NCBI RefSeq assembly: GCF_900128455.1
Contig: NZ_LT635783.1
Span: 2,723,520-2,787,519, forward strand
Length of the DNA: 64,000 nt
Origin: Bacteroides mediterraneensis
Lineage (GTDB): Bacteria > Bacteroidota > Bacteroidia > Bacteroidales > Bacteroidaceae
Direction: 5' to 3'
Notes under the pieces: model-generated
Told to the model about the DNA's origin: nothing
What the model saw: the letters and a program-made list of their open reading frames with translations, nothing else
Database searches by the model: none
Position numbers and translations under genes: made by a program
In this document: one piece after another, positions 3,351 to 57,941 of the stretch
Position numbering within the stretch: the first letter of the stretch is position 1
Layout: each line of letters begins with the position of its first letter

Positions 3351-5024
3351 CTATTCCGCTTCTATTTCCTCATTTTTCAGGTTAATCCGGAAATTCACGC
3401 ACGGTTCCCCGTTCAGGAATGCCTGGAACAAGACCGACAAATCCCGTACATATTCCACCGCTGGTGAAGCCGATGCAGAGGTCTGCGTGCGGTCAAACAA
3501 ATAACGATAAGCAGCCAAACGCTCTGACGGAATATCTCTCAAGGCAAGCCGGTCGGCATAACGCAAGCGATAAAGGTCGAGAATCATGTCTTCCATGCGC
3601 CATTGCGTCCATTCGGCCTCCGCCGATTTGTCCTCCCCGGTCACTTCCTGTAGCAAGCGGGCCCCCGTAAACTTCAAGTAAGGCTTCCAGCTTTCCGGCA
3701 AATCGCGCGGAATGAAACGCACACGTACCAAGTCACGGAACTGATAATCGCAAAATTCACGATATGTGCAGGAAGAAAGAATTTCTTTGTTCCACACCGG
3801 CGAACGGCCTTTCAAGGAATCCGAACGGTATTCAGCCTGATACAAAGGAAACAACTGAGCGAATCCTGCCACCGAATCGAGCGTCACCGTTTCCACCCGG
3901 AACTCTTCCGGATGCTCAATGGTCAGAATTTTGTAGGCCGGCATATAGGTAGCCAGCGAAGGTATCTGTATGTTATAAAGTTTCTTTCCATCCTTTCCTT
4001 CCCAGATGCCCGTGTCATTCACGTGCATGTGTCCGGCAAAATGCAGACGAATACCCGCTTCCAGAAAAGCTTCGCTCACCTCCGCTTCCGGCACACGATC
4101 CAAGTCGAAACGACGGTTGCCCCATATCTTCTTCACGTAGTCCGACACACCGTCGTTGAAATCCACCAGCGGATAATGTGAGAAGGTGACCAGCGTTTTA
4201 TGCAATCGCCGGGCTTCGGCCACCACCTTCCGTACCCACGGCAATAAAAAGGCTTTATGTGCCAGTACATTATTATATCCTATACTGGAACCTTGGTACA
4301 CCATCTTTCCCTCTTTCATACCTTTCGGCAGATAGGCTCCCCCGTCGATGGCCAGCAACCAGAGTCCGTCTACCGGCTCCACCAGATAACTGGCATCTAT
4401 TGCAGTCAGCGAATCGCACAAGGTATAGGTTCTTCTTTCGAGCCCCCCTTCCTTTTGCGCCTCTTTATAGCTGTATTTTTCATACGTGTAGGAAGTAAAT
4501 GGGGTTTCCCAATATCGGTATTCCTTTTGTGGGAAAAAGCCGAAGGTCGCGTAACACTTCATCTGGTCGGCATAGCCGGCACATGAATCTTCCCGCGTTA
4601 CTCGAGTGCCGTCGGCAGCCAGATAGTTCACATTCTTCTGTTTCAGTCCAAACGGAAGCGCCGGATCATGATTGCCGGTGGTGACAAAAAACCGCATTCC
4701 CTTCCGACGAGTATAACCGTCGAGAATCTCTTTCATCTTTTGCTGGTTGAAAAACTGCCCATTGTCGGTCAGGTCACCCGACAAGACCACCAGACGAATG
4801 TTTCTCTGGGCTACGTCGTTCAACGCAGTCAGAAAAGCATAATAATTTTCATTGAACAAACGAGTAGACTGTACCTGTACTTCCATGGAACGTACCCGTT
4901 CGGGATGCCCGTCAATATCCTGAATATGTGCGTCCGATATAAACGCAATCTGTGTCTGCGCGTTGCCCGTCAGCGTCATTCCCCCTAAAACGGCTGCCAG
5001 CAACAAGAAAATAATCCTATTCAT
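3351..5024 (-). CDS. exported calcineurin-like metallophosphoesterase
   Basis: The 557-residue product has a signal peptide (MNRIIFLLLAAVLGG...) and then the ordered motifs of the calcineurin-like phosphoesterase superfamily: D-A-H near the mature N-terminus, GDLTDNG, GNHD, a later histidine in TFSHYP, and GHMHVND. These are the ligands of the two-metal site. The substrate is unknown; the fold covers nucleotidases, phosphodiesterases and phospholipid phosphatases. An in-frame TTG at 5045 would add seven residues, but the ATG at 5024 gives a clean signal peptide and leaves room for the -7 box at 5049-5056, so it is preferred. The gene stands alone. Confidence 0.88.
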   Translation of the reverse strand: MNRIIFLLLAAVLGGMTLTGNAQTQIAFISDAHIQDIDGHPERVRSMEVQVQSTRLFNENYYAFLTALNDVAQRNIRLVVLSGDLTDNGQFFNQQKMKEILDGYTRRKGMRFFVTTGNHDPALPFGLKQKNVNYLAADGTRVTREDSCAGYADQMKCYATFGFFPQKEYRYWETPFTSYTYEKYSYKEAQKEGGLERRTYTLCDSLTAIDASYLVEPVDGLWLLAIDGGAYLPKGMKEGKMVYQGSSIGYNNVLAHKAFLLPWVRKVVAEARRLHKTLVTFSHYPLVDFNDGVSDYVKKIWGNRRFDLDRVPEAEVSEAFLEAGIRLHFAGHMHVNDTGIWEGKDGKKLYNIQIPSLATYMPAYKILTIEHPEEFRVETVTLDSVAGFAQLFPLYQAEYRSDSLKGRSPVWNKEILSSCTYREFCDYQFRDLVRVRFIPRDLPESWKPYLKFTGARLLQEVTGEDKSAEAEWTQWRMEDMILDLYRLRYADRLALRDIPSERLAAYRYLFDRTQTSASASPAVEYVRDLSVLFQAFLNGEPCVNFRINLKNEEIEAE

Positions 5025-5048
5025 AAAAGCATGATTGAAAATCAATCA

Positions 5049-5132: not shown

Positions 5133-5224
5133 TTCTCTGTTCCACAGTTTGGAATTTATATCCCACACTGTGAAATATATATCCCACACTGTGGTTTTTG
5201 TATTTCACAGTGTGGGACAGAGAA
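5133..5224. repeat. palindromic array A: four 21-bp units
   Basis: Four units start at 5140, 5161, 5182 and 5203, exactly 21 bp apart. Each carries a palindromic core close to TYCCACASTGTGGRA, centred at 5147, 5168, 5189 and 5210, with AT-rich filler between cores. The array is bracketed by a 14-bp inverted repeat with one mismatch (5133-5146 and 5211-5224). It sits between the NifX-like gene and the metallophosphoesterase gene, both on the minus strand. Function unknown; the two-helical-turn spacing would suit four protein dimers on one DNA face, but hairpins in RNA are also possible. Confidence 0.85.
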
Positions 5225-5264: not shown

Positions 5265-5642
5265 TTAATGGTGTGCGCACTGATGCGTTTCTCCTTCATG
5301 ATGATGCGCACATTCCACTCCGGAATCCTGTATTTTTCCAGCCAGGTAATCTTCGGCTACCTGCATCACCGAACCCTGACAGCCTCGGATGACCGTAATG
5401 CCACAAGCCGAGAGCTTGGCCAGTGCACCGGCCCCCATGTTTCCTGCCAGCATCACCGTCACTCCGTCGGCCTGCAGTTTGGACGCGATATCCGACTTGC
5501 AGCCACATCCTTGCGGAGAAGGAAGCACCTGCGTACGCGTGATGCGGTTCTCTTCGTCCACCGTAAAAATCGTATAAAACTCACAATGAACGAAATGGTC
5601 GTCTACTACTCCGTTCCGAGTAGGTAAAGCTATTTTCTTCAT
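5265..5642 (-). CDS. NifX/NifB-like dinitrogenase cofactor-binding family protein
   Basis: The 125-residue protein has the fold signature of the dinitrogenase iron-molybdenum cofactor family: MKKIALPT at the N-terminus, a D-D-H-F-x-H segment, and GNMGAGALAKL followed by a V-I-R-G turn. In nitrogen fixers such proteins carry a metal cluster, but no nif genes are present here. The C-terminus is metal-ligand rich (ECAHHHEGETHQCAHH), and a GCGC motif lies near residue 46. It is the last gene of the B12 operon, 42 bases after cbiB. A role in handling cobalt or a corrinoid is only an inference from position and ligands. Confidence 0.75.
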   Translation of the reverse strand: MKKIALPTRNGVVDDHFVHCEFYTIFTVDEENRITRTQVLPSPQGCGCKSDIASKLQADGVTVMLAGNMGAGALAKLSACGITVIRGCQGSVMQVAEDYLAGKIQDSGVECAHHHEGETHQCAHH

Positions 5643-11452: not shown

Positions 11453-11962
11453 TTATCCTTTCACTTTAAGCGGAATGCCAGAAACCATCAGTACTACCTG
11501 GTCAGCTTTGGAAGCGATATATTGATTCATCCAGCCCTGCAGGTCGGTAAACCGGCGCTGCACCTCGTTGGGGGAAACGCCTCCCATTCCAATCTCATTG
11601 GTAACGAAGATAAACGTCGCCTCCTGCGCGGTAAAGCGGTCGAATTCCCGCTTCAAGGCCTCCAAGGCTAAGGCTACATCCTGCTGCTCCACAAAATAAT
11701 TCGTACACCAAAGCGTCACACAGTCGATTACTGCTACCCGGCCGGTGATGTCGTGACGGCTCAGCTCCTTTTCTTCCTCGATATTCGTCCATTCGGGTCC
11801 ACGATTCTGCTGATGACGCTCCACTCGCTTCCGAAATTCCTCATCCCAGATTTTCGCTGTGGCCATATACACCGGCGATGAGGTCAGCTCATGAGCCAGC
11901 CGTTCGGCATAACTGCTTTTTCCTGAGCGTTCACCGCCTGTAATCAATATAATCTTTTTCAT
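11453..11962 (-). CDS. cobU: adenosylcobinamide kinase / GTP:adenosylcobinamide-phosphate guanylyltransferase
   Basis: CobU phosphorylates adenosylcobinamide and adds GMP. The protein begins MKKIILITGGERSGKSSYAE with the P-loop GGERSGKS, continues with ATAKIWDEEFRKRVERHQ (the region carrying the guanylylation histidine), and has FVTNEIGMGGVSPN later, all family hallmarks. The open frame extends upstream to an ATG at 12073, but that 37-residue extension is the translation of a strong hairpin and has no family counterpart, so the ATG at 11962 is chosen (169 residues, the usual length). It is the first gene of the cob operon. Confidence 0.93.
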   Translation of the reverse strand: MKKIILITGGERSGKSSYAERLAHELTSSPVYMATAKIWDEEFRKRVERHQQNRGPEWTNIEEEKELSRHDITGRVAVIDCVTLWCTNYFVEQQDVALALEALKREFDRFTAQEATFIFVTNEIGMGGVSPNEVQRRFTDLQGWMNQYIASKADQVVLMVSGIPLKVKG

Positions 11963-20403: not shown

Positions 20404-22968
20404 ATGAATACCACTAAAACTACGCAAATATTTCCCGTATTAGAGATGAGCTGTGCCGCCTGCGCTGCACGAGTAGAAAAGACCCTGAACCGTCAGACAG
20501 GGGTGTATCATGCCAGCGTGAACTATGCGGCTGCCACCGCCACCGTGGAGTACAATCCCGAGAGCTGCTCACCGGAAGCGCTGAAGAGTGCCATCCAGGC
20601 AGCTGGTTACGACCTGGTCATCGACACCCACGCTAACAAAGAAGAAATAGCAGAAGACGCGCACATACAGAAATACCGTAAACTGAAGTTCCGCACTCTC
20701 TGCTCCCTGGCCTTGTCCATTCCGGTAGCCGTCATCGGCATGTGCTTCATGGACTGGAGTTATGCCAACTATGTGATGTGGATACTTGCCACTCCCGTTG
20801 TCTTCTGGCTGGGGCGGGATTTCTATCGCAATGCCTGGAAACAGCTGAAACACCGCACGTCGAACATGGACACGCTGGTAGCCGTCAGCACGGGCATCGC
20901 ATATATCTTCAGCCTCTTCAACCTGTTCTGGCCGGAATTCTGGATGAGCCGCGGCATTCATCCCCATGTCTATTTTGAAGCCGCCAGTGTCATCATCTCG
21001 TTCATTCTGCTCGGACGACTGCTGGAAGAAAGAGCCAAAGGCAACACCTCCGAGGCTATCAAGAAACTGATGGGCCTGCAACCGGCTACCGTTACCCTCC
21101 TGAGTCCGGACGGCACCCAAAAAGAGATTCCCGTGGAACAGGTACAAGCCGGACAACGCCTGCTGGTGAAACCCGGTGCCCGTATACCCGTAGACGGTAC
21201 GGTAGATGAGGGACGTTCGTATGTAGACGAGAGCATGCTCACCGGCGAACCGCTTCCCTCGGAAAAAGTCCCCGGCGAAAAAGTCTTTGCCGGCACCATC
21301 AACCAGAAAGGAAGTTTCAGTTTTACAGCCGACAAGGTAAGCAGTGAGACCGTGCTGGCCCACATCATCCGCATGGTGCAGGAAGCGCAAGGCAGCAAGG
21401 CCCCCGTACAACAGCTGGTCGACCGCATTGCCGCCATCTTTGTTCCCACCATCCTGAGCATCGCCCTACTGGCCTTTCTGGCATGGGTGCTGCTGGATAG
21501 TCAGAACGGATTTACCCATGGACTGCTGGCCGCTGTCACCGTGACCATCATTGCCTGCCCCTGCGCGTTGGGACTGGCCACGCCGACCGCCATCATGGTG
21601 GGCATCGGGAAAGGTGCTGAAAACGGTATCCTGATCAAAGATGCCGACAGCTTGGAGACCGCCCGCAAGGTCAATGCCATCGTCCTCGACAAGACCGGTA
21701 CCCTGACCGAAGGACACCCGACCGTGACCGACCTCTCCGCCGGCCTGTCGCAAGCCCCCCTGTCACGCATCCTTTTCACCCTGGAAAGTGCATCGGAACA
21801 TCCGCTGGCACAGGCCATCGTACACCATCTCGCTGCGCAACCTCTCCCCATGGAAGGGTTCGAAAGCCTGACGGGACTGGGTGTCCGTGGAAAAATCAAC
21901 GGTACCTATTATTATGCCGGCAACCGTCGCCTGCTGGAGCAACACGGACTTGCCATTCCCGCCTCTCTGGCCGAAGAAGCTACCCGCCTGAGCGAGGAAG
22001 CCAAGACCGTCATCTGGCTGGCCGATGAGAAGCAAGCCTTGGGAGTGGTGGCCATTGCCGACCGCATCAAGCCGACCTCCAAAGAAGCTGTGATGCAATT
22101 ACAGGAAATGGGAATCTCCACCTACATGCTAACCGGCGACAATCCGGAAACCGCCCGGAAGATTGCGGAACAATGTGGCATCACCCATTTCCAGGCAGAA
22201 GTGCTTCCCCAGCAGAAAGCCCAGTTCATTCAGGAACTGCAACACCAAGGGAAAGTGGTAGCCATGGTGGGCGACGGTATCAACGACAGTGCCGCACTGG
22301 CCCAGGCCGACCTCAGCATCGCCATGGGAAAAGGCAGCGACATTGCCATGGACGTGGCCAAGATGACCCTGATTTCCTCCGATTTGAACAAAATCACCGA
22401 TGCCATCCGCCTTTCCCAAGCCACGGTACGCACCATCCGCGAAAATCTGTTCTGGGCATTCATCTACAACCTGATTGGCATCCCCGTGGCGGCAGGTATC
22501 CTGTATCCCCTCAACGGCTTCCTGCTGAACCCGATGATAGCCGGCGCTGCCATGGCCATGAGCAGTGTGAGTGTGGTAAGCAACAGCCTGCGGTTGAAAC
22601 GGAAAAAATTAACACACACCCAAGCATCGGCAGCCGTCGCGGAAGCAATACAGTCCGTGGAAGTACAACCGGTGGAAACACGACCTATGGAAGAACAGGC
22701 GAAAACCACACAGCCGGTAACCTCCCCCTCACCTGCCTCAGCCACTTCCAGTGTCCAAAAGACCTACCTGGTGGAAGGCATGATGTGCGACCACTGCCGC
22801 ACCCGGGTAGAAAAAGTGCTGAATACCGTAGAAGGCGCTACCGCCCAAGTCACTTTGACTCCTCCGGAGGCTGTCATCACCTTCCAGGGAAAAGTATCAT
22901 CGCTGGAAGAGTTGCAGCACCTGATTGACGAAAAAGCGGGCGACTATAAGCTAAAAGAAAAGAACTGA
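20404..22968 (+). CDS. copA: copper-translocating P1B-type ATPase with N- and C-terminal HMA domains
   Basis: This 854-residue pump exports Cu(I). An N-terminal heavy-metal domain carries MSCAAC (C17, C20). Membrane helices follow, then the TGE actuator loop (MLTGEPLPSEK), the ion-binding CPC (C385-P-C387), the phosphorylation site D429 in DKTGTLTEG, SEHPLA for ATP contact, and GDGINDSAAL. After the last helix there is a Pro/Thr/Glu-rich linker (about 735-780) and a second heavy-metal domain, EGMMCDHC (C795, C798), which is not the usual CopA layout. It diverges from the antiporter and is followed by a four-unit palindromic array. Confidence 0.95.
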   Translation: MNTTKTTQIFPVLEMSCAACAARVEKTLNRQTGVYHASVNYAAATATVEYNPESCSPEALKSAIQAAGYDLVIDTHANKEEIAEDAHIQKYRKLKFRTLCSLALSIPVAVIGMCFMDWSYANYVMWILATPVVFWLGRDFYRNAWKQLKHRTSNMDTLVAVSTGIAYIFSLFNLFWPEFWMSRGIHPHVYFEAASVIISFILLGRLLEERAKGNTSEAIKKLMGLQPATVTLLSPDGTQKEIPVEQVQAGQRLLVKPGARIPVDGTVDEGRSYVDESMLTGEPLPSEKVPGEKVFAGTINQKGSFSFTADKVSSETVLAHIIRMVQEAQGSKAPVQQLVDRIAAIFVPTILSIALLAFLAWVLLDSQNGFTHGLLAAVTVTIIACPCALGLATPTAIMVGIGKGAENGILIKDADSLETARKVNAIVLDKTGTLTEGHPTVTDLSAGLSQAPLSRILFTLESASEHPLAQAIVHHLAAQPLPMEGFESLTGLGVRGKINGTYYYAGNRRLLEQHGLAIPASLAEEATRLSEEAKTVIWLADEKQALGVVAIADRIKPTSKEAVMQLQEMGISTYMLTGDNPETARKIAEQCGITHFQAEVLPQQKAQFIQELQHQGKVVAMVGDGINDSAALAQADLSIAMGKGSDIAMDVAKMTLISSDLNKITDAIRLSQATVRTIRENLFWAFIYNLIGIPVAAGILYPLNGFLLNPMIAGAAMAMSSVSVVSNSLRLKRKKLTHTQASAAVAEAIQSVEVQPVETRPMEEQAKTTQPVTSPSPASATSSVQKTYLVEGMMCDHCRTRVEKVLNTVEGATAQVTLTPPEAVITFQGKVSSLEELQHLIDEKAGDYKLKEKN

Positions 22969-22991
22969 TTGAAAGCATTTTATCTGATTTC

Positions 22992-23079
22992 AGTACTTCC
23001 TTGGCAGTACTGCAGTACTGCTAAGGAAGTACTACAGTACTGCCAAGGGAGTACCAGAGTACTGCAAGAGAAGTACTCA
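22992..23079. repeat. palindromic array B: four 22-bp units
   Basis: Units start at 22992, 23014, 23036 and 23058, exactly 22 bp apart. Each reads AGTACT, 8 bases, AGTACT (AGTACC in unit 3), then 2 bases. The 8-base centre is TCCTTGGC in unit 1 and GCTAAGGA, GCCAAGGG and GCAAGAGA in the others, so unit 1 is the reverse complement of the rest. It lies between the copper ATPase and a lipoprotein gene, both on the plus strand, ending 88 bp before the lipoprotein's -7 box. Confidence 0.9.
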
Positions 23080-23199: not shown

Positions 23200-24015
23200 A
23201 TGAAACTCATGCAATTTATTCAAGGAATGTTCCTGACAACCTGCATCCTGCTCTTCGCAGCCTGCAAAAACGATAATGGTCCGATTTACCTCGTCAGCGT
23301 GGACAACCAGCAAAAAATAACCGACGGTACGATAGAACTCAGTCTGTTCAGCACAGGCGAAAAATTCTTCATCCGGGGAGGAGATGGGAACTACACTCTC
23401 AAAAACGGAGATGCCACCATTGCGGACTACCGCTACGATGGAGAAACCCTGACCTTCCTTCCGGTCAGCATCGGCCAGACCTCTACCACCATTTCCGACC
23501 GGAAAGGAAACAGCTACACCGTATCCATCTTGGTCAGCAATCCTACAGATGAATACCGGGTGAAAAGTCTGGAAGCAGAAGTGGAAGGCGATAACCTCAC
23601 CAAAGGAGATGAATCGACCTTAAAGGCACGCATCGTAGAGGAATCCCCTCTCCAGACAGAAGGACGCTTTTCCCTCATCTATTCAGATGCTTCCCAGTCG
23701 TATGGGGAACTGAGAATTTTCCCGAACAGCACCGGCAACTATCAGCTTGGCATTTTTGAACGTACCCTCAAATACACGGAAGATACAGGAGAACCCTATC
23801 TGCGCATTGAGGCTACCATGGCAGGAAGTACCAAGCAGCAATATACCTTCATGCTGTTTGAAAACGAAACGACAGCTGAAGGGACAACAACGTCCGAATC
23901 CGCTGAAGGTACAAACACAGTTTGCCTCATCAAGGAAGACGTGACCGACCAGTACAAAGGAGAATTCAACGGACTCACCAAGGCTTACCGTATCTATCAC
24001 TTAATCAAACAGTAA
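23200..24015 (+). CDS. lipoprotein of unknown function
   Basis: The 271-residue protein has a signal peptide with a lipobox (LLFAAC), so it should be anchored in a membrane by its N-terminal cysteine. The body is rich in beta-strand-like segments and contains a first half resembling an immunoglobulin-like module (GEKFFIRGGDGNYTLKNGD... ending SYTVSILVSNP). A Thr/Glu-rich stretch (ENETTAEGTTTSESAEGT) interrupts the second half. No family is recognised. It precedes the helicase gene by 22 bases and may share its transcript. Confidence 0.75.
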   Translation: MKLMQFIQGMFLTTCILLFAACKNDNGPIYLVSVDNQQKITDGTIELSLFSTGEKFFIRGGDGNYTLKNGDATIADYRYDGETLTFLPVSIGQTSTTISDRKGNSYTVSILVSNPTDEYRVKSLEAEVEGDNLTKGDESTLKARIVEESPLQTEGRFSLIYSDASQSYGELRIFPNSTGNYQLGIFERTLKYTEDTGEPYLRIEATMAGSTKQQYTFMLFENETTAEGTTTSESAEGTNTVCLIKEDVTDQYKGEFNGLTKAYRIYHLIKQ

Positions 24016-42510: not shown

Positions 42511-42624
42511 TGCAAGGTATTATAATTTTAGAACATTTAACAAGATTCTATCTCCATAAAAGCAAAGCAATCGAAAGAAAAAGTACTTTTGTAGAAAACA
42601 CACTTATTTTATTACAAAACGCCT

Positions 42625-43122
42625 ATGTTTAATATCAGAAAAGCGACAATCGAAGACATTGAGATTATCCGGGCACTGGCCAAGCAGACCTTTCCGGTCA
42701 CTTACCAGAAGATTCTAACCCCGGAACAAATTGATTACATGATGGAGTGGATGTATTCTGCCGAGAGCCTGAAGAACCAGATGGAGAAGGAGCACCACAT
42801 TTACTACCTCGCCTACGAGGAGTGCGAACCGGCCGGCTACGTGTCCATCCAGCAGGAAGGGCCTGACCTCTTCCACTTGCAGAAGATTTATGTGCTTCCC
42901 TACTTCCAGAAATACAAACTCGGACGGCAACTGTTCGAGCAGGCCATCAAAGGCATCAAGGAACTTCATCCCGAACCTTGCCGGATGGAACTGAACGTGA
43001 ACCGTCACAATCCGGCACTGGGATTTTATGAGCACATGGGCATGAAGAAGGTACGCGAAGGTGACTTCCCCATCGGCAACGGGTATTACATGAACGATTA
43101 CATCATGGGGCTGGACATCTAG
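42625..43122 (+). CDS. GNAT-family N-acetyltransferase
   Basis: The 165-residue protein has the GNAT fold: FNIRKATIEDIEIIRALAKQ, a central AGYVSIQ strand, the acetyl-CoA loop in VLPYFQKYKLGRQLF (replacing Q/R-x-x-G-x-G/A), and LNVNRHNPALGFYEHMGM. The acceptor is unknown. It diverges from the PadR gene. Confidence 0.9.
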   Translation: MFNIRKATIEDIEIIRALAKQTFPVTYQKILTPEQIDYMMEWMYSAESLKNQMEKEHHIYYLAYEECEPAGYVSIQQEGPDLFHLQKIYVLPYFQKYKLGRQLFEQAIKGIKELHPEPCRMELNVNRHNPALGFYEHMGMKKVREGDFPIGNGYYMNDYIMGLDI

Positions 43123-44326: not shown

Positions 44327-44416
44327 TATGTTTCTCGGCGCGAAAACGTACGTTTCTGCACCCGGAGCCGTACGTCTCCCAAGTGGAAAACGTACGTTTC
44401 CCTCACGGGAAACATA
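44327..44416. repeat. palindromic array C: four 22-bp units
   Basis: Four units start at 44327, 44349, 44371 and 44393, exactly 22 bp apart, and end with the next unit's TA at 44416. Each reads TACGTTTC or a close variant, a variable centre, then GAAAACG (or GGAGCCG, GGAAACA), so each is an inverted repeat. The outermost half-units are degenerate but keep the phase. The array lies between the split lysO genes and tolC, both on the minus strand, and directly follows the T-run of a candidate small RNA. Confidence 0.88.
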
Positions 44417-44522
44417 AAAAAGGCCTTGAAGGCTGTCTCTCTTCTCCAAGGGATTCTTTACTTTTTGTGACGAACCCTTCGCAAGCAAGCGGACTCATCC
44501 GCTCCCTCGGGTTCCGAATCAC
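44416..44522 (-). ncRNA. candidate small RNA of about 105 bases
   Basis: A minus-strand transcript starting near 44522 would open with a compact fold: GTGA/TCAC and GAACCC/GGGTTC stems (44472-44477 with 44509-44514, 44467-44470 with 44519-44522) enclosing a perfect AGCGGA/TCCGCT hairpin. About 35 bases later GCCTTCAAGGC is followed by a run of T (44416-44421), a short terminator-like end. The promoter is at 44527-44558. No coding frame or known RNA family was recognised. It could instead be the leader of lysO. Confidence 0.4.
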
Positions 44523-44631: not shown

Positions 44632-45921
44632 TCAACGGCGCCCCGTGACTTGCAGATATTCCCGTTTTTTCAGTTCATAATCCGTGTAACTTTCCACGTA
44701 TTTGTCACAGCTTTGCTGAAACAAGGTCTGCGCATCGAGCAAATCACTCATCGTACAGGTGCCCGACTTGTAATAATCGGTGTTCAAACGCAGGTTCTCC
44801 GTGGCCTGTTCAATGGACAGACGGGCAATCTTCATCTGTTCGTAGGCCTCATTCACCCCGTTCCACGCATTTTTCATGCGGATAACCAGCAGCTCTCCCT
44901 GGTCGGCCAACTGGTTTTCCGTGTTCTTCACTTGGAGTTTCTCCTTCTTGAGGGCATGGCTGCCTCCCCACCATCCGGTCAGAGGCACGGTCACCGTGGC
45001 AAACCCCACCCAGAAGCGCTGGTCTTCCGGTAAGAAGTTATGATACACATACCCTCCGCCAATGGCCACCGTAGGCAGATTCTTGCCCAACTCCATCTTG
45101 TATTGCAGACGGCTGGCCTTCACATTCTGTTGCAACAGCGCATATTCACTGGTCAGTCCCAAAGCCGACTCCGGATCGCAGTAAAGACTGTCCGGACGAG
45201 AAGGCAGCTGGTCGTCGACGGAAAAGGCCACTGCCAGGGAATCGGAGCCAAGGCCCGTATATTGCGCCAGCATGTTCCGCGAAATGGACAAAGCATTCTC
45301 CAGCTGCAGGCGGCTGCTTTTGGTCTCGTTCCGGCGAAGCTGCATCTGCAACAAATCGTTGCGTGTCACCACGCCTGCCTCCACCGAAGCCTCCACATCG
45401 CGCAAGATACGCTCCAGTTGCGTTTCCACCTTGCCCAAAGTCTTGAGTTTCTCCTGCAGAGTGACCACCCGCCAGAAATACTGTTCCGTGGTCAGCGTCA
45501 CCTCGTTGTCGGACAAGTTCTGCTGCAGGCGTTTCACCTCTACCCCCACTTTGGCCAACTGGTTCCCGTTGACAATCTGTCCGCCGGTAAAGAGCGGCAG
45601 GGAGGCACTCACTCCTCCCGCTATTCCGTTCTTGAGCATCGACATGTGCATGTCCGGAGCCAGATCCATCTGCATCAGCCCTTTATCAGCCATAAAGCCG
45701 GTACCCGCCGCCATGACACTCGGGAAATAATTGGTAAACGCCTTCTTCTTGTCCTGTCGGGCCATTTCCAGTTCGTTACGGGCATTCTTCATCTTCACAT
45801 TGTTTGTCAAGGCAGCCTGAATACATTCATCCAAGGTGTAGGCTTTCTGCCCGAAGGCCAGATTCACACACGCCCCACCTATCAATAGAAAAGCTATGAT
45901 TCTGTTTCGATTCGTTTTCAT
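44632..45921 (-). CDS. TolC-family outer membrane efflux protein
   Basis: A 429-residue outer-membrane factor with a signal peptide (ending NLAFGQ) and two OEP repeats: YTLDECIQAALTNNVKMKNA, and a second copy near the C-terminus with LRLNTDYYKSGTCTMSDLLDAQ. These fold as the trimeric TolC channel. It is the last gene of an RND efflux operon after the adaptor and the pump. The C-terminus ends at the K-K-R-E-Y-L-Q-V-T-G region, as in family members. Confidence 0.93.
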   Translation of the reverse strand: MKTNRNRIIAFLLIGGACVNLAFGQKAYTLDECIQAALTNNVKMKNARNELEMARQDKKKAFTNYFPSVMAAGTGFMADKGLMQMDLAPDMHMSMLKNGIAGGVSASLPLFTGGQIVNGNQLAKVGVEVKRLQQNLSDNEVTLTTEQYFWRVVTLQEKLKTLGKVETQLERILRDVEASVEAGVVTRNDLLQMQLRRNETKSSRLQLENALSISRNMLAQYTGLGSDSLAVAFSVDDQLPSRPDSLYCDPESALGLTSEYALLQQNVKASRLQYKMELGKNLPTVAIGGGYVYHNFLPEDQRFWVGFATVTVPLTGWWGGSHALKKEKLQVKNTENQLADQGELLVIRMKNAWNGVNEAYEQMKIARLSIEQATENLRLNTDYYKSGTCTMSDLLDAQTLFQQSCDKYVESYTDYELKKREYLQVTGRR

Positions 45922-55277: not shown

Positions 55278-55682
55278 ATGAAGAAGATTTTATTTACTAC
55301 CTTGTTGTGCGTAATGAACATCCTGTTCGTCATTGCACAGGGAACAGCACAGATTACGTTTGAAAAGACTACATACAACTTTGGCTCTTTCTCGGAAAAC
55401 AGTCCGAAAGTGACTTGCAAGTTCAAGTTCACCAATACGGGCGACGGACCGCTGGTGATTCATCAGGCCATCGCTTCGTGCGGATGTACCGTACCTCAGT
55501 ATCCGAAAGAACCCATCAAACCGGGTGAAAGCGGTGAAGTGACAGTGACTTACAACGGAGCCGGCAAATTCCCCGGACATTTCCGCAAGACCATCACCCT
55601 GCGCACCAACTCCAAGAACGAAATCACCCGCTTGGTAGTAGAGGGAGACATGACACCGGCATCAGCCGATGCAAACAACTAA
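55278..55682 (+). CDS. DUF1573 exported protein
   Basis: The 134-residue protein has a signal peptide (ending VIAQG) and one DUF1573 immunoglobulin-like module: ITFEKTTYNFGSFSENSPKV, CKFKFTNTGDGPLVIHQAIA, SCGCTVPQYPKEPIKPGESG. The SCGCT motif is typical. Function is unknown; such domains occur widely in exported Bacteroidetes proteins. A terminator and a four-unit palindromic array follow. Confidence 0.9.
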   Translation: MKKILFTTLLCVMNILFVIAQGTAQITFEKTTYNFGSFSENSPKVTCKFKFTNTGDGPLVIHQAIASCGCTVPQYPKEPIKPGESGEVTVTYNGAGKFPGHFRKTITLRTNSKNEITRLVVEGDMTPASADANN

Positions 55683-55746: not shown

Positions 55747-55766
55747 TGCCTCAGAAAGGGGGCCGG

Positions 55767-55854
55767 AAACGTCCTTGCGTTTGGTTTGAAACGCCAAAGA
55801 GTTTTGATTAAAACGCAAGGACGTTTTACTTCAAACGCACTTGCGTTTTCCTAC
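55767..55854. repeat. palindromic array D: four 22-bp units
   Basis: Units start at 55767, 55789, 55811 and 55833, exactly 22 bp apart. Each reads AAACG, 6 bases, CGTTT (AGTTT in unit 2), then 6 bases. Unit 1 (AAACGTCCTTGCGTTT) is the exact reverse complement of unit 3 (AAACGCAAGGACGTTT). It lies between the DUF1573 terminator and the OPT promoter, ending 20 bp before the OPT -33 box. Both genes are on the plus strand. Confidence 0.9.
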
Positions 55855-55952: not shown

Positions 55953-57941
55953 ATGAAAGAGACACAAGAAAAACCGACGGGATTGCCCGACAACGCGTTC
56001 CGTCCGCTCAAACCGGGAGAAAAATACGAACCACTCATGTCTCCCGGAAAAACGTATCCTGAAGTAAACCTGTGGTCCGTGACATGGGGACTTGTCATGG
56101 CCGTCATCTTCTCGGCTGCCGCCGCTTACCTGGGCCTGAAAGTGGGACAGGTGTTCGAAGCAGCTATCCCTATCGCCATCATTGCCGTGGGCATTTCCAG
56201 TGCGACCAAACGAAAAGGCGCACTGGGTGAAAATGTCATGATTCAATCCATCGGTGCCTGCTCGGGCGTCATCGTGGCAGGTGCCATCTTTACCCTGCCG
56301 GCCCTCTATATCCTGCAGGAAAAATACCCGGAAATGACGGTCAACTTCATGCAGATGTTCATCAGCTCCCTGTTGGGAGGCGTGTTGGGCATCCTGTTCC
56401 TGATTCCCTTCCGTAAATATTTCGTAAAAGACAAGCACGGCGAATATCCTTTCCCGGAAGCTACGGCCAGCACCCAGGTGCTCGTGTCGGGTGAAAAGGG
56501 AGGCGACCAGGCCAAACCGCTGCTCATGGCCGGATTGGTGGGTGGTCTGTACGACTTCATTGTGGGTACGTTCGGCTGGTGGAACGAGAACTTCACAAGC
56601 CGTATCTGTGGATGGGGCGAGACCATTGCCGACAAGTTCAAACTGGTTTTCAAAATCAATACGGGCGCTGCCGTGCTGGGACTCGGTTACATCGTCGGCC
56701 TGAAATATGCGGCCATCATCTGTGCCGGCTCTCTGGTGGTATGGTGGGTCATCGTACCGGGTATCTCCCTGTTCTGGGGCGACCAGGTGCTAAATGCCTG
56801 GAATCCGGACATCACCATGGCCGTGAAAGACATGTCGCCCGAACTCATTTTCAAGGAATATGCCAAGAGCATCGGTATCGGAGGTATCGCTATGGCAGGT
56901 ATCATCGGTATCGTACGTTCATGGGGCATCATCAAGAGTGCGGTCAGTCTGGCTGCCAATGAGATGAAAGGAAAGAAGACCGAAGAAAGCGTGGAACGCA
57001 CACAGAAAGACCTGTCCATGAAAATCATCGCCTTCGGTTCTTTGTTCACCCTGCTGCTCGTGGTACTCTTCTTCTATTTCGACGTGATGCAAGGTAACAT
57101 CCTGCATACCGTAGTAGCCATCCTGCTGGTAGCGGGAATCTCCTTCCTCTTCACCACCGTGGCGGCCAATGCCATCGCCATCGTCGGTACAAACCCGGTA
57201 TCGGGTATGACCCTGATGACCTTGATTCTGGCTTCCGTCATCATGGTGGCCGTAGGCCTGAAAGGTGCCACGGGTATGGTGGCCTCCCTGGTAATGGGTG
57301 GCGTGGTTTGCACCGCATTGTCCATGGCCGGCGGTTTCATCACCGACCTGAAAATCGGTTACTGGCTGGGTAGCACACCCAAGAAGCAGGAAAGCTGGAA
57401 GTTCCTCGGCACACTGGTTTCGGCAGCTACCGTAGGTGGCGTCATCATGGTACTGAACGATTCGTATGGATTCACCAGCGGACAACTGGCTGCCCCACAA
57501 GCCAACGCCATGGCAGCTGTCATCGACCCGCTGATGAACGGAGTAGGTGCTCCATGGTTGCTCTATGGCATCGGTGCGGTACTGGCACTCGTACTGACCT
57601 TCTGCAAGGTGCCTGCCCTGGCTTTCGCGCTGGGTATGTTCATCCCCTTGGAACTGAACCTCCCGTTGCTGGTGGGTGGTGCCATCAATTGGTACGTGAC
57701 CTCCCGCAGCAAGGACGAAGCCATCAACACGGCACGCGGCGAGAAAGGTACGCTGCTGGCTTCCGGATTCATCGCCGGAGGTGCCCTGATGGGAGTGGTA
57801 AGCGCCATCATGCGCTATTGCAACATCAACCTCATCCACGAGGAATGGCTGAACAATCCGATGAGTGAGCTGGTATCACTGATTGTCTATCTGCTGCTGA
57901 TAGCCTATCTGGTCAAGGCCAGCATGAAACTAAAAAAATAA
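55953..57941 (+). CDS. OPT-family oligopeptide transporter
   Basis: A 662-residue membrane protein of the oligopeptide transporter family with about 14 hydrophobic helices. It shows GLKVGQVFEAAIPIAIIAVG, a N-x-x-I-Q-S-I-G segment (ENVMIQSIGACSGVIVAGAI), FPEATASTQVL, and ANAIAIVGTNPVSGMTL. OPT carriers move small peptides or metal-chelate complexes with protons. The substrate is unknown. An esterase gene begins 19 bases downstream and may be in the same transcript. Array D lies in front of its promoter. Confidence 0.93.
   Translation: MKETQEKPTGLPDNAFRPLKPGEKYEPLMSPGKTYPEVNLWSVTWGLVMAVIFSAAAAYLGLKVGQVFEAAIPIAIIAVGISSATKRKGALGENVMIQSIGACSGVIVAGAIFTLPALYILQEKYPEMTVNFMQMFISSLLGGVLGILFLIPFRKYFVKDKHGEYPFPEATASTQVLVSGEKGGDQAKPLLMAGLVGGLYDFIVGTFGWWNENFTSRICGWGETIADKFKLVFKINTGAAVLGLGYIVGLKYAAIICAGSLVVWWVIVPGISLFWGDQVLNAWNPDITMAVKDMSPELIFKEYAKSIGIGGIAMAGIIGIVRSWGIIKSAVSLAANEMKGKKTEESVERTQKDLSMKIIAFGSLFTLLLVVLFFYFDVMQGNILHTVVAILLVAGISFLFTTVAANAIAIVGTNPVSGMTLMTLILASVIMVAVGLKGATGMVASLVMGGVVCTALSMAGGFITDLKIGYWLGSTPKKQESWKFLGTLVSAATVGGVIMVLNDSYGFTSGQLAAPQANAMAAVIDPLMNGVGAPWLLYGIGAVLALVLTFCKVPALAFALGMFIPLELNLPLLVGGAINWYVTSRSKDEAINTARGEKGTLLASGFIAGGALMGVVSAIMRYCNINLIHEEWLNNPMSELVSLIVYLLLIAYLVKASMKLKK

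Follow-up and report, generated by a model that had tools for sequence, protein, structure and literature searches.

Phased palindromic arrays in several exchangeable sequence dialects look like a so far undescribed kind of landmark on Bacteroides and Phocaeicola chromosomes

Partition centromeres of the ParR/parC type and the sites of Lrp/AsnC octamers are made of helically phased repeats of about 20 bp to which dimers bind side by side, and both are single regulatory or plasmid loci. Dispersed bacterial repeats are known as well. According to its published description, the BrickBuilt MITE of Porphyromonas gingivalis comprises 19 intergenic elements of tandem 23-bp units with small inverted-repeat ends; unit number varies between strains (1 to 22.8 repeats, 84–991 bp), and the elements form a single sequence family with leader and tail regions of up to 285 and 318 nt, for which target-site duplications are reported (PMC4596501). 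REP/BIME elements are described as short dispersed intergenic palindromes, present also as composite arrays, that carry GTAG/CGTC tags and go together with RAYT transposases (PMC2817692, PMC3733652). The 13-bp matS target of MatP is given as 23 copies in one 800-kb domain (PMC3330122), and the DNA uptake sequences of Neisseriaceae as serving one role in lineage-specific dialects (PMC3630211).

The stretch of DNA analysed here (the window, 64 kb) belongs to a host genome near Phocaeicola plebeius, whose OPT protein shares 99% identity with the one from Bacteroides mediterraneensis An793 and 97% with the one from P. plebeius DSM 17135. It contains four arrays:

5133..5224, no strand assigned: array A, family A, four 21-bp units.
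22991..23079, no strand assigned: array B, family B, four 22-bp units AGTACT-N8-AGTACT.
44327..44417, no strand assigned: array C, family C, four 22-bp units GTTTCY-N6-RGAAAC with GTAC-like linkers.
55765..55850, no strand assigned: array D, family D, four 22-bp units AAACG-N6-CGTTT.

The units of array A start at 5140, 5161, 5182 and 5203, that is, at exact 21-bp steps, each being a motif YCCACASTGTGGR plus an A/T-rich linker, and the array is bounded by the inverted-repeat ends TTCTCTGT...ACAGAGAA; it lies between a metallophosphoesterase gene (3351–5045, −) and a gene with a Nitro_FeMo-Co domain (5265–5642, −). Array B is flanked by a heavy-metal P-type ATPase gene (20404–22968, +) and an ORF without Pfam match (23200–24015, +), array C, with ends TTCTATGTTTC...GAAACATAAAAAA, lies about 215 bp past the stop of an outer-membrane efflux protein gene (44632–45921, −), and array D stands between a DUF1573 gene (55278–55682, +) and an OPT transporter gene (55953–57941, +), with flanks 93–94% identical to An793. 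Array A, which the first-pass annotation had placed at 5133–5224 with four units at exact 21-bp steps and inverted-repeat ends, was thus confirmed on the sequence, as was the same plan that it had noted at 22992, 44327 and 55767 (arrays B, C and D). A weak three-unit array is also seen at 42571–42634 of the window; the matching intergenic region of loci L051 and L052 holds D-like arrays, the L051 site in turn matches a site in L064, and the window copy may be a decayed array.

Arrays were searched for with a detector that looks for palindromic arms, in units 20–23 bp apart and with arms alike. Its settings were tuned on the window, a stricter setting having overlooked arrays A and C at four units, and the window is therefore no independent test of it; independent evidence comes from 80 named loci, from the G058 and G010 stretches, and from a period scan outside the window. 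At four or more units the detector returns exactly A, B, C and D in the window and nothing in 20 dinucleotide shuffles, and the four arrays are real and not due to chance. The named loci (80 loci of at most 22 kb each around the OPT gene, 1.45 Mb in total) gave 52 arrays of at least three units, an upper figure that includes some coding or satellite repeats (e.g., L057 9363 and L121), and 18 of at least four units, versus 2 in three shuffles; 41 of the 80 loci were without array, 22 kb being too short to call any genome empty. Similar arrays at similar rates in shuffled sequence, which the first-pass annotation had named as evidence against the class, were thus found neither for the window (0 in 20) nor for the named loci.

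Each window array was then compared by BLAST with the whole host genome (4.08 Mb, 18 contigs). Family A occupies 21 places, one of them a two-unit remnant, family B 8, family C at least 38 (37 on contig C1 and one on C6) and family D at least 40, the C and D counts being minima with 40 of 53 and 40 of 62 first-look candidates scored; rows were merged by hand, and five rows with E >0.4 (three B, two C) were excluded. The sequences are thus not locus-specific, as had been proposed, and the window arrays are single copies of dispersed sequence families. A fifth family, E (CGACACG..CGTGTCG), was first detected in genome G058 and then in the host, in three places by BLAST and one by alignment (two units by motif), bringing the host genome to about 100 arrays, roughly one per 36–40 kb, in at least five unrelated sequence families on one common plan. 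Parsed host arrays of at least three units number 98 (A 20, B 7, C 30, D 41), including one C and one D found in sampled stretches and not by BLAST; outside this set are the unfetched BLAST places (five C on C1, the C6 C place and one B) and those below three units (three C and the two-unit A). Because the A copies are much alike (81–91% identical to the window array by BLAST), some copying process must spread this family, much as with a mobile element. Sixteen of the 20 A arrays lie on one absolute strand, on both replichores (p 0.012), a count to be read with caution as orientation is hard to define in near-palindromic arrays. Several contigs of genome G039 (C59, C23, C133, C113, C80, C74, C25, C121) terminate within A arrays, which suggests long identical stretches among its A copies.

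Unit geometry is close to invariant within a family. Across 96 host arrays, unit spacing is 21 bp in 57 of 57 steps for A, and 22 bp in 18 of 18 for B, 86 of 88 for C and 149 of 151 for D. The four units of the original description hold for A (17/20), B (6/6) and C (28/30) and do not hold for D, of which 13 arrays have four, 23 five and 4 six units (of 40). A scan over every period from 15 to 40 (at least four units, simple repeats removed) found 6 arrays at 22 bp and 1 at 21 in host sequence outside the window, 23 at 22 bp in G058, and 3 at 22 bp and 1 at 21 in G010; the named loci, whose hits were not inspected singly, gave 11 at 22, 3 at 23, 6 at 24 and 1 each at 18, 21 and 27, and other periods yielded nothing in any of these sets. 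Units are gained and lost locally: upstream of the OPT gene, the array D site has four units in the host versus 5–6 in the relatives L045–L047, and one host E array is two units shorter. In some aligned pairs the unit-specific cores retain their order from one species to the other (core identity 1.00 at 2135561, 0.83 at 1138209, and down to 0.5 in others), and local duplication, which had been suggested to make new arrays, is unsupported as their source, the arrays being copies of dispersed families.

By sequence comparison, other Phocaeicola and Bacteroides bear unrelated sequences on the same plan: B. caecigallinarum and genomes around it have GTTACACGTWCGTGTAAC, Bacteroides sp. Marseille-P3684 has CTAAGTATTATACTTAG, B. 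congonensis and B. faecalis have GTTTATNATAAAC, and G010, a further Phocaeicola, has different sequences again, e.g., TTCACCTAAGTGAA. Close upstream of the OPT gene, where the host has array D, two other species (L109 9775–9888 and L122 2319–2406) carry 23-bp tandem repeats with a CGCATAGTAAGGAGG core. A composite run of about a dozen units at steps of about 22 bp is present at 11480–11780 of L389 (contig IMGVR_UViG_3300035431_000002, classed as viral), in which the arms remain D-like and the cores switch in blocks; it may offer a view of a new dialect starting. The first-pass annotation knew of no named element of this type, and none turned up here: the arrays gave no Rfam match at gathering threshold, and no description of such an array class was found in the open-access literature, subscription papers lying mostly outside that search.

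Gene context was assigned with a codon-scored gene caller, rough in itself, which replaced cruder longest-ORF counts. The 98 parsed arrays fall into 38 codirectional, 26 convergent and 19 divergent contexts, with 15 left unassigned, so that placement between genes of the same orientation is true of the four window loci and not of the genome at large. In the 38 codirectional gaps, the median distance of the array is 58 bp from the upstream stop and 198 bp from the downstream start. Context differs with family, A and C being divergent in 16 of 41 assigned arrays versus 3 of 42 for B and D (p 0.0006), which are often convergent (20/42). Along the chromosome, with ori and ter assigned from the GC skew of 20 stretches alone, D arrays are biased towards the half around the terminus and A arrays towards that around the origin (Mann–Whitney p 0.0001 with ter at 2.25 Mb, p 0.00002 to 0.002 for ter 2.1–2.4; 4/20000 in a label shuffle of A, C and D); this is a bias and not a partition, and C is indistinct from A. 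Conserved flanks or a larger element around the arrays were sought and not seen, the 150 bp on either side holding no strongly enriched 9-mers (best 5/30, in C).

The spacing of the arrays was analysed on C1 with all BLAST places on this contig and E (112 arrays; the C6 C place excluded). There is no gap below 5 kb versus 14.4 expected at random, one below 8 kb (22.3 expected), 4 below 10 kb (27.1) and 16 below 15 kb (38.0). Even a null that imposes a minimum distance of 4 kb fails at 8 kb, where it expects 13.1 gaps, though barely at 5 kb (3.4, P 0.03), and smaller C1 sets (98 and 104 arrays) give agreeing results. When the families are rotated independently, thereby preserving each family's own pattern, 20.8 different-family neighbour pairs are expected within 10 kb and 2 are found, with 0 of 3000 rotations as low; upon addition of five very weak BLAST rows (117 arrays), the figures become 2 versus 24.2 for gaps below 8 kb and 4 versus 22.9 for different-family pairs within 10 kb. 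In 880 kb of G058, with an intergenic-only null, 0 of 29 gaps lie below 8 kb (7.6 expected, none of 5000) and 2 below 10 kb (9.0 expected, P 0.0002), a result that is weaker when two doubtful generic three-unit hits are included (2 of 31 below 8 kb versus 8.5, P 0.0008). Missed arrays could hide close pairs, but the family searches were separate and the G058 stretches complete. Arrays of different families thus avoid each other, and the spacing repeats in a second genome, G058.

Orthologous sites were compared in two genome pairs, host–G022 (86–89% nucleotide identity where aligned) and G039–G058 (88–98%), and between the pairs. Of the 98 host arrays, 10 have both flanks intact on the compared G058 stretches, and all 10 sites are filled, 8 by the same family and 2 by C in place of A. 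For 9 further host arrays a single flank was placed in G058, and of the 8 such sites examined 3 have an array and 5 none; for 6 the flanks lie apart: two of these have an array at one end, one (3161181) has a D array within the 4.5 kb between the flanks, and the remaining three have nothing beyond a weak two-unit hit. In the G022 sequence compared, 5 of 5 placed host arrays are present in the same family. Exchange of one family for another at the same place was found at eight sites, listed below in the order host, G022, G039, G058 and with host coordinates:

2728660: A A C C, the G058 C array being degenerate (2 units by relaxed motif); contiguous stretch.
681219: A A A C; from the search for C arrays.
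850057: A A A D; from a directed search.
810021: A A ? C; from the search for C arrays, single flank in G058.
3018968: A A ? C; from the search for C arrays.
3394733: A ? ? C; contiguous stretch.
3365451: two-unit A in the host, C in G058; contiguous stretch.
3316027: C in the host, D in G058, with a 12-kb insertion in the host; contiguous stretch.

Four of the eight thus come from contiguous stretches, and with three from the search for C arrays and one from a directed search the eight do not amount to a rate. Family A has 22 places in G022, about 20 in G039, where contig ends cut through some of them, and 1 in G058, and at 3532941 G058 retains the first ten bases of an A end, after which the match breaks off, so that A seems to have stood there formerly and to have been lost since. 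The single G058 copy (L322) was considered as founder locus of A and set aside, the listed ORFs giving no pointer to a partner gene. Five genomes around B. caecigallinarum have one site and dialect in common, as do B. congonensis and B. faecalis, and when both flanks were mapped, in each direction, among the more distant named loci and the window, 59 of 271 mappings hit an array. For two host A arrays on C1, at 1039211 and 3235505 (L198 and L207), the left flanks are no more than about 0.5 kb apart in G058, and so are the right flanks (C6 around 181 kb and C3 around 270.8 kb), with an A array at neither junction, which seems to reflect an inversion of about 2.2 Mb with both ends at these arrays. 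That arrays are hot spots of rearrangement was considered and is not claimed: 6 array sites are broken and 10 intact, as against 1 and 10 among controls (Fisher p 0.18).

To see which parts of an array are kept between species, differences were scored in arms, cores, linkers and flanks of 34 orthologous pairs in five family–genome groups and of one B pair. For D, host versus G058 (10 pairs) differ at 47/460 positions in arms, 85/276 in cores, 113/215 in linkers (1 gap) and 1037/3186 in flanks; host versus G022 (3 pairs) at 3/140, 15/84, 23/66 and 282/938; and one host array versus three plebeius-group loci at 8/120, 17/72, 19/54 and 131/964, respectively. D linkers drift but keep their length, with a single gap in total. 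The B pair differs at 1/48 arm and 15/32 core positions. The contrast is weak in C (arms 75/324, linkers 17/79, flanks 796/2109), and in A the linkers are as conserved as the arms (14/248 and 46/546) and the whole array is less diverged than its flanks (761/3473). Half-sites of B and D are thus conserved between species, as if under selection, those of C weakly so, and A is without arm–linker contrast. Because all 10 intact G058 sites are filled, this does not merely follow from seeing conserved arrays only. Protein-dimer sites lined up in constant helical phase would be expected to leave the pattern seen in D and B.

The reading that in our view best accounts for the observed geometry, dispersion, conservation pattern, spacing and site-wise exchange, and to which we give even odds (a probability of about 0.5), is that the arrays are spaced chromosomal protein-binding sites, kept by selection in exchangeable dialects and likely involved in nucleoid organisation; protein binding, one protein per dialect and the architectural role are what we infer. 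Each 21–22-bp unit, spanning two helical turns, would present two inverted half-sites to a protein dimer, and 4–6 units in phase would align the dimers on a single face of the DNA, each contacting its neighbours two turns on. Every sequence family would be a dialect with its own putative reader protein, and loaded arrays, about one per 36–40 kb, would serve chromosome organisation, a task that different proteins could fulfil. Since the dialects keep apart and substitute for each other at the same orthologous place, we infer one shared job carried out at intervals, most likely in nucleoid organisation or segregation, matS-like but in several exchangeable dialects. Several observations count against this reading: the close likeness of the A copies, the missing arm–linker contrast of A and its weakness in C, the frequent emptiness of sites that are not intact in G058, and the share of 59 in 271 mappings over wider distances. 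Dialects were examined in the host, G022, G039, G058 and G010. Lrp/AsnC octamers, an obvious first thought for phased dimers, were considered as dialect readers and rejected, these genomes and G041 having exactly 3 matches to Lrp/AsnC genes in each of the six, though their dialects differ.

The same copying and spacing could come from non-autonomous mobile repeats (MITE/REPIN-like) without host function, driven by a putative transposase, for which the shared plan would be what the enzyme needs, and kept apart by target immunity near an existing copy. Dispersed multicopy families with inverted ends fit this, as does the contrast between some 20–22 places for A in G022 and G039 and 1 in G058, despite the close identity of G039 and G058, and immunity would produce the over-dispersion seen. 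It would, however, have to work across unrelated sequences; the flanks hold no strongly enriched sequence, half-sites conserved while linkers drift, as in B and D, are unexpected of decaying inserts, and the Y1 transposase domain (PF01797) of RAYTs has 0 matches in the host genome, versus matches in 5 of 14 control genomes, by which RAYT-driven REPs are rejected. Mobile repeats thus explain copying and spacing, but neither half-site selection nor the exchange of unrelated families at the same place, and we hold them unlikely, if the main contender. Operators of a few ordinary transcription factors, one regulon per family, would equally have palindromic half-sites under selection and a family that varies with gene context, as it does for divergent genes. 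Yet codirectional arrays sit nearer the upstream stop than the downstream start, 26 of 83 assigned arrays lie between convergent genes, and neither avoidance between families nor site-wise exchange is expected of separate regulons, which leaves operators improbable.

Structure-level elements, be they RNA hairpins in 3′ UTRs, bidirectional terminators or DNA cruciforms, would depend on folding and not on sequence. Strong folds are predicted on both strands (run without shuffled controls), convergent placement is common for B and D, and D ends resemble A-run...T-run terminators; C ends, however, carry their A and T runs in the wrong order for a terminator, and 16 of 41 assigned A and C arrays lie between divergent genes. 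When paired cells are compared with column-shuffled ones, covariation is absent in A (361 versus 361.2) and in B (209 versus 218.5), C (649 versus 673.4) and D (1130 versus 1214.6), the last three being below their shuffles, and on the sense strands of codirectional arrays G-U versus A-C mismatches show no clear excess (140 versus 117, p 0.17; C alone 50 versus 27, p 0.012). With no covariation of paired positions in families A to D, the arrays would not act as RNA or cruciform structures, and we dropped this role as very improbable. The first-pass suggestion of DNA-binding arrays evolving with different partners finds support in the kept half-sites, the linkers of fixed length and the absence of covariation, though in an altered form in which sequence follows family and not locus. 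DNA uptake sequences are short single words present in very high number. Self-recognition labels for DNA uptake or recombination, akin to uptake-sequence dialects, would be lineage-specific and spaced, as the arrays are, and would agree with BLAST having found neither A nor D among phage and plasmid records, and no C among plasmid records, and with the absence of the exact A pattern from viral contigs. An exact three-unit D pattern does match one viral contig (L389), and about 100 sites of about 90 bp, with several dialects within one genome, are unlike such words; this explanation is very improbable.

Within the reading of spaced protein-binding sites, we advance two points more tentatively. 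An array may be needed about every 40 kb, with unrelated array–protein dialects being interchangeable and invading or replacing each other at fixed sites; and, as a conjecture of the same tentative standing, a dialect could nearly vanish, as A in G058, while others come to hold several of the same sites. Such turnover of landmarks would be comparable to that of fast-evolving centromeres. If the reading of spaced binding sites is true, chromosome organisation in Bacteroides and Phocaeicola, which are abundant in the gut, relies on a system of sites outside every family compared, in which sequence can change while geometry, spacing and place persist. This would explain many unannotated intergenic repeats, offer a way to study the joint change of DNA-binding specificity and of sites across a genome, and provide spaced handles for studying the Bacteroides nucleoid. 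Even as mobile elements, the arrays would show a mutual exclusion of unrelated repeat families that is apparently new.

Set beside the known systems, largely by their published descriptions, the arrays match each in part. They share with BrickBuilt the occurrence in Bacteroidales, the intergenic position, tandem short units, apparent inverted-repeat ends and variable unit number, and differ from it, as described, in having units of 21 or 22 bp, several dialects, a spacing rule and half-site selection; leader and tail regions of the BrickBuilt type are absent from the 150-bp flanks, in which no 9-mer is strongly enriched. As to the hallmarks of MITEs, A, B and C have inverted ends, but the entire array is built of inverted half-sites; as to target-site duplications, the intact orthologous sites compared were all filled and gave no clean pair of a filled and an empty site. 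With REP/BIME they have in common short dispersed intergenic palindromes in arrays (98 parsed, four families), unlike the REP/BIME described with units fixed at 21–22 bp, 4–6 per array, and several unrelated sequences on one plan. Like matS they are dispersed putative protein sites, of which one family (D) leans to the terminus half; unlike the published matS they form phased arrays in several dialects over the whole chromosome, and the terminus bias of D and origin bias of A, as judged from GC skew alone, are not exclusive, next to the confinement to one domain given for matS. Their lineage-specific dialects resemble those of Neisseriaceae uptake sequences as published, although here a single genome has about 100 arrays in at least five dialects, and their several helically phased repeats of about 20 bp recall ParR/parC and Lrp/AsnC sites, here dispersed genome-wide. 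BrickBuilt, REP/RAYT, matS and uptake dialects thus each cover part of the picture, and the arrays would seem to be chromosome landmarks of a kind not described to date.
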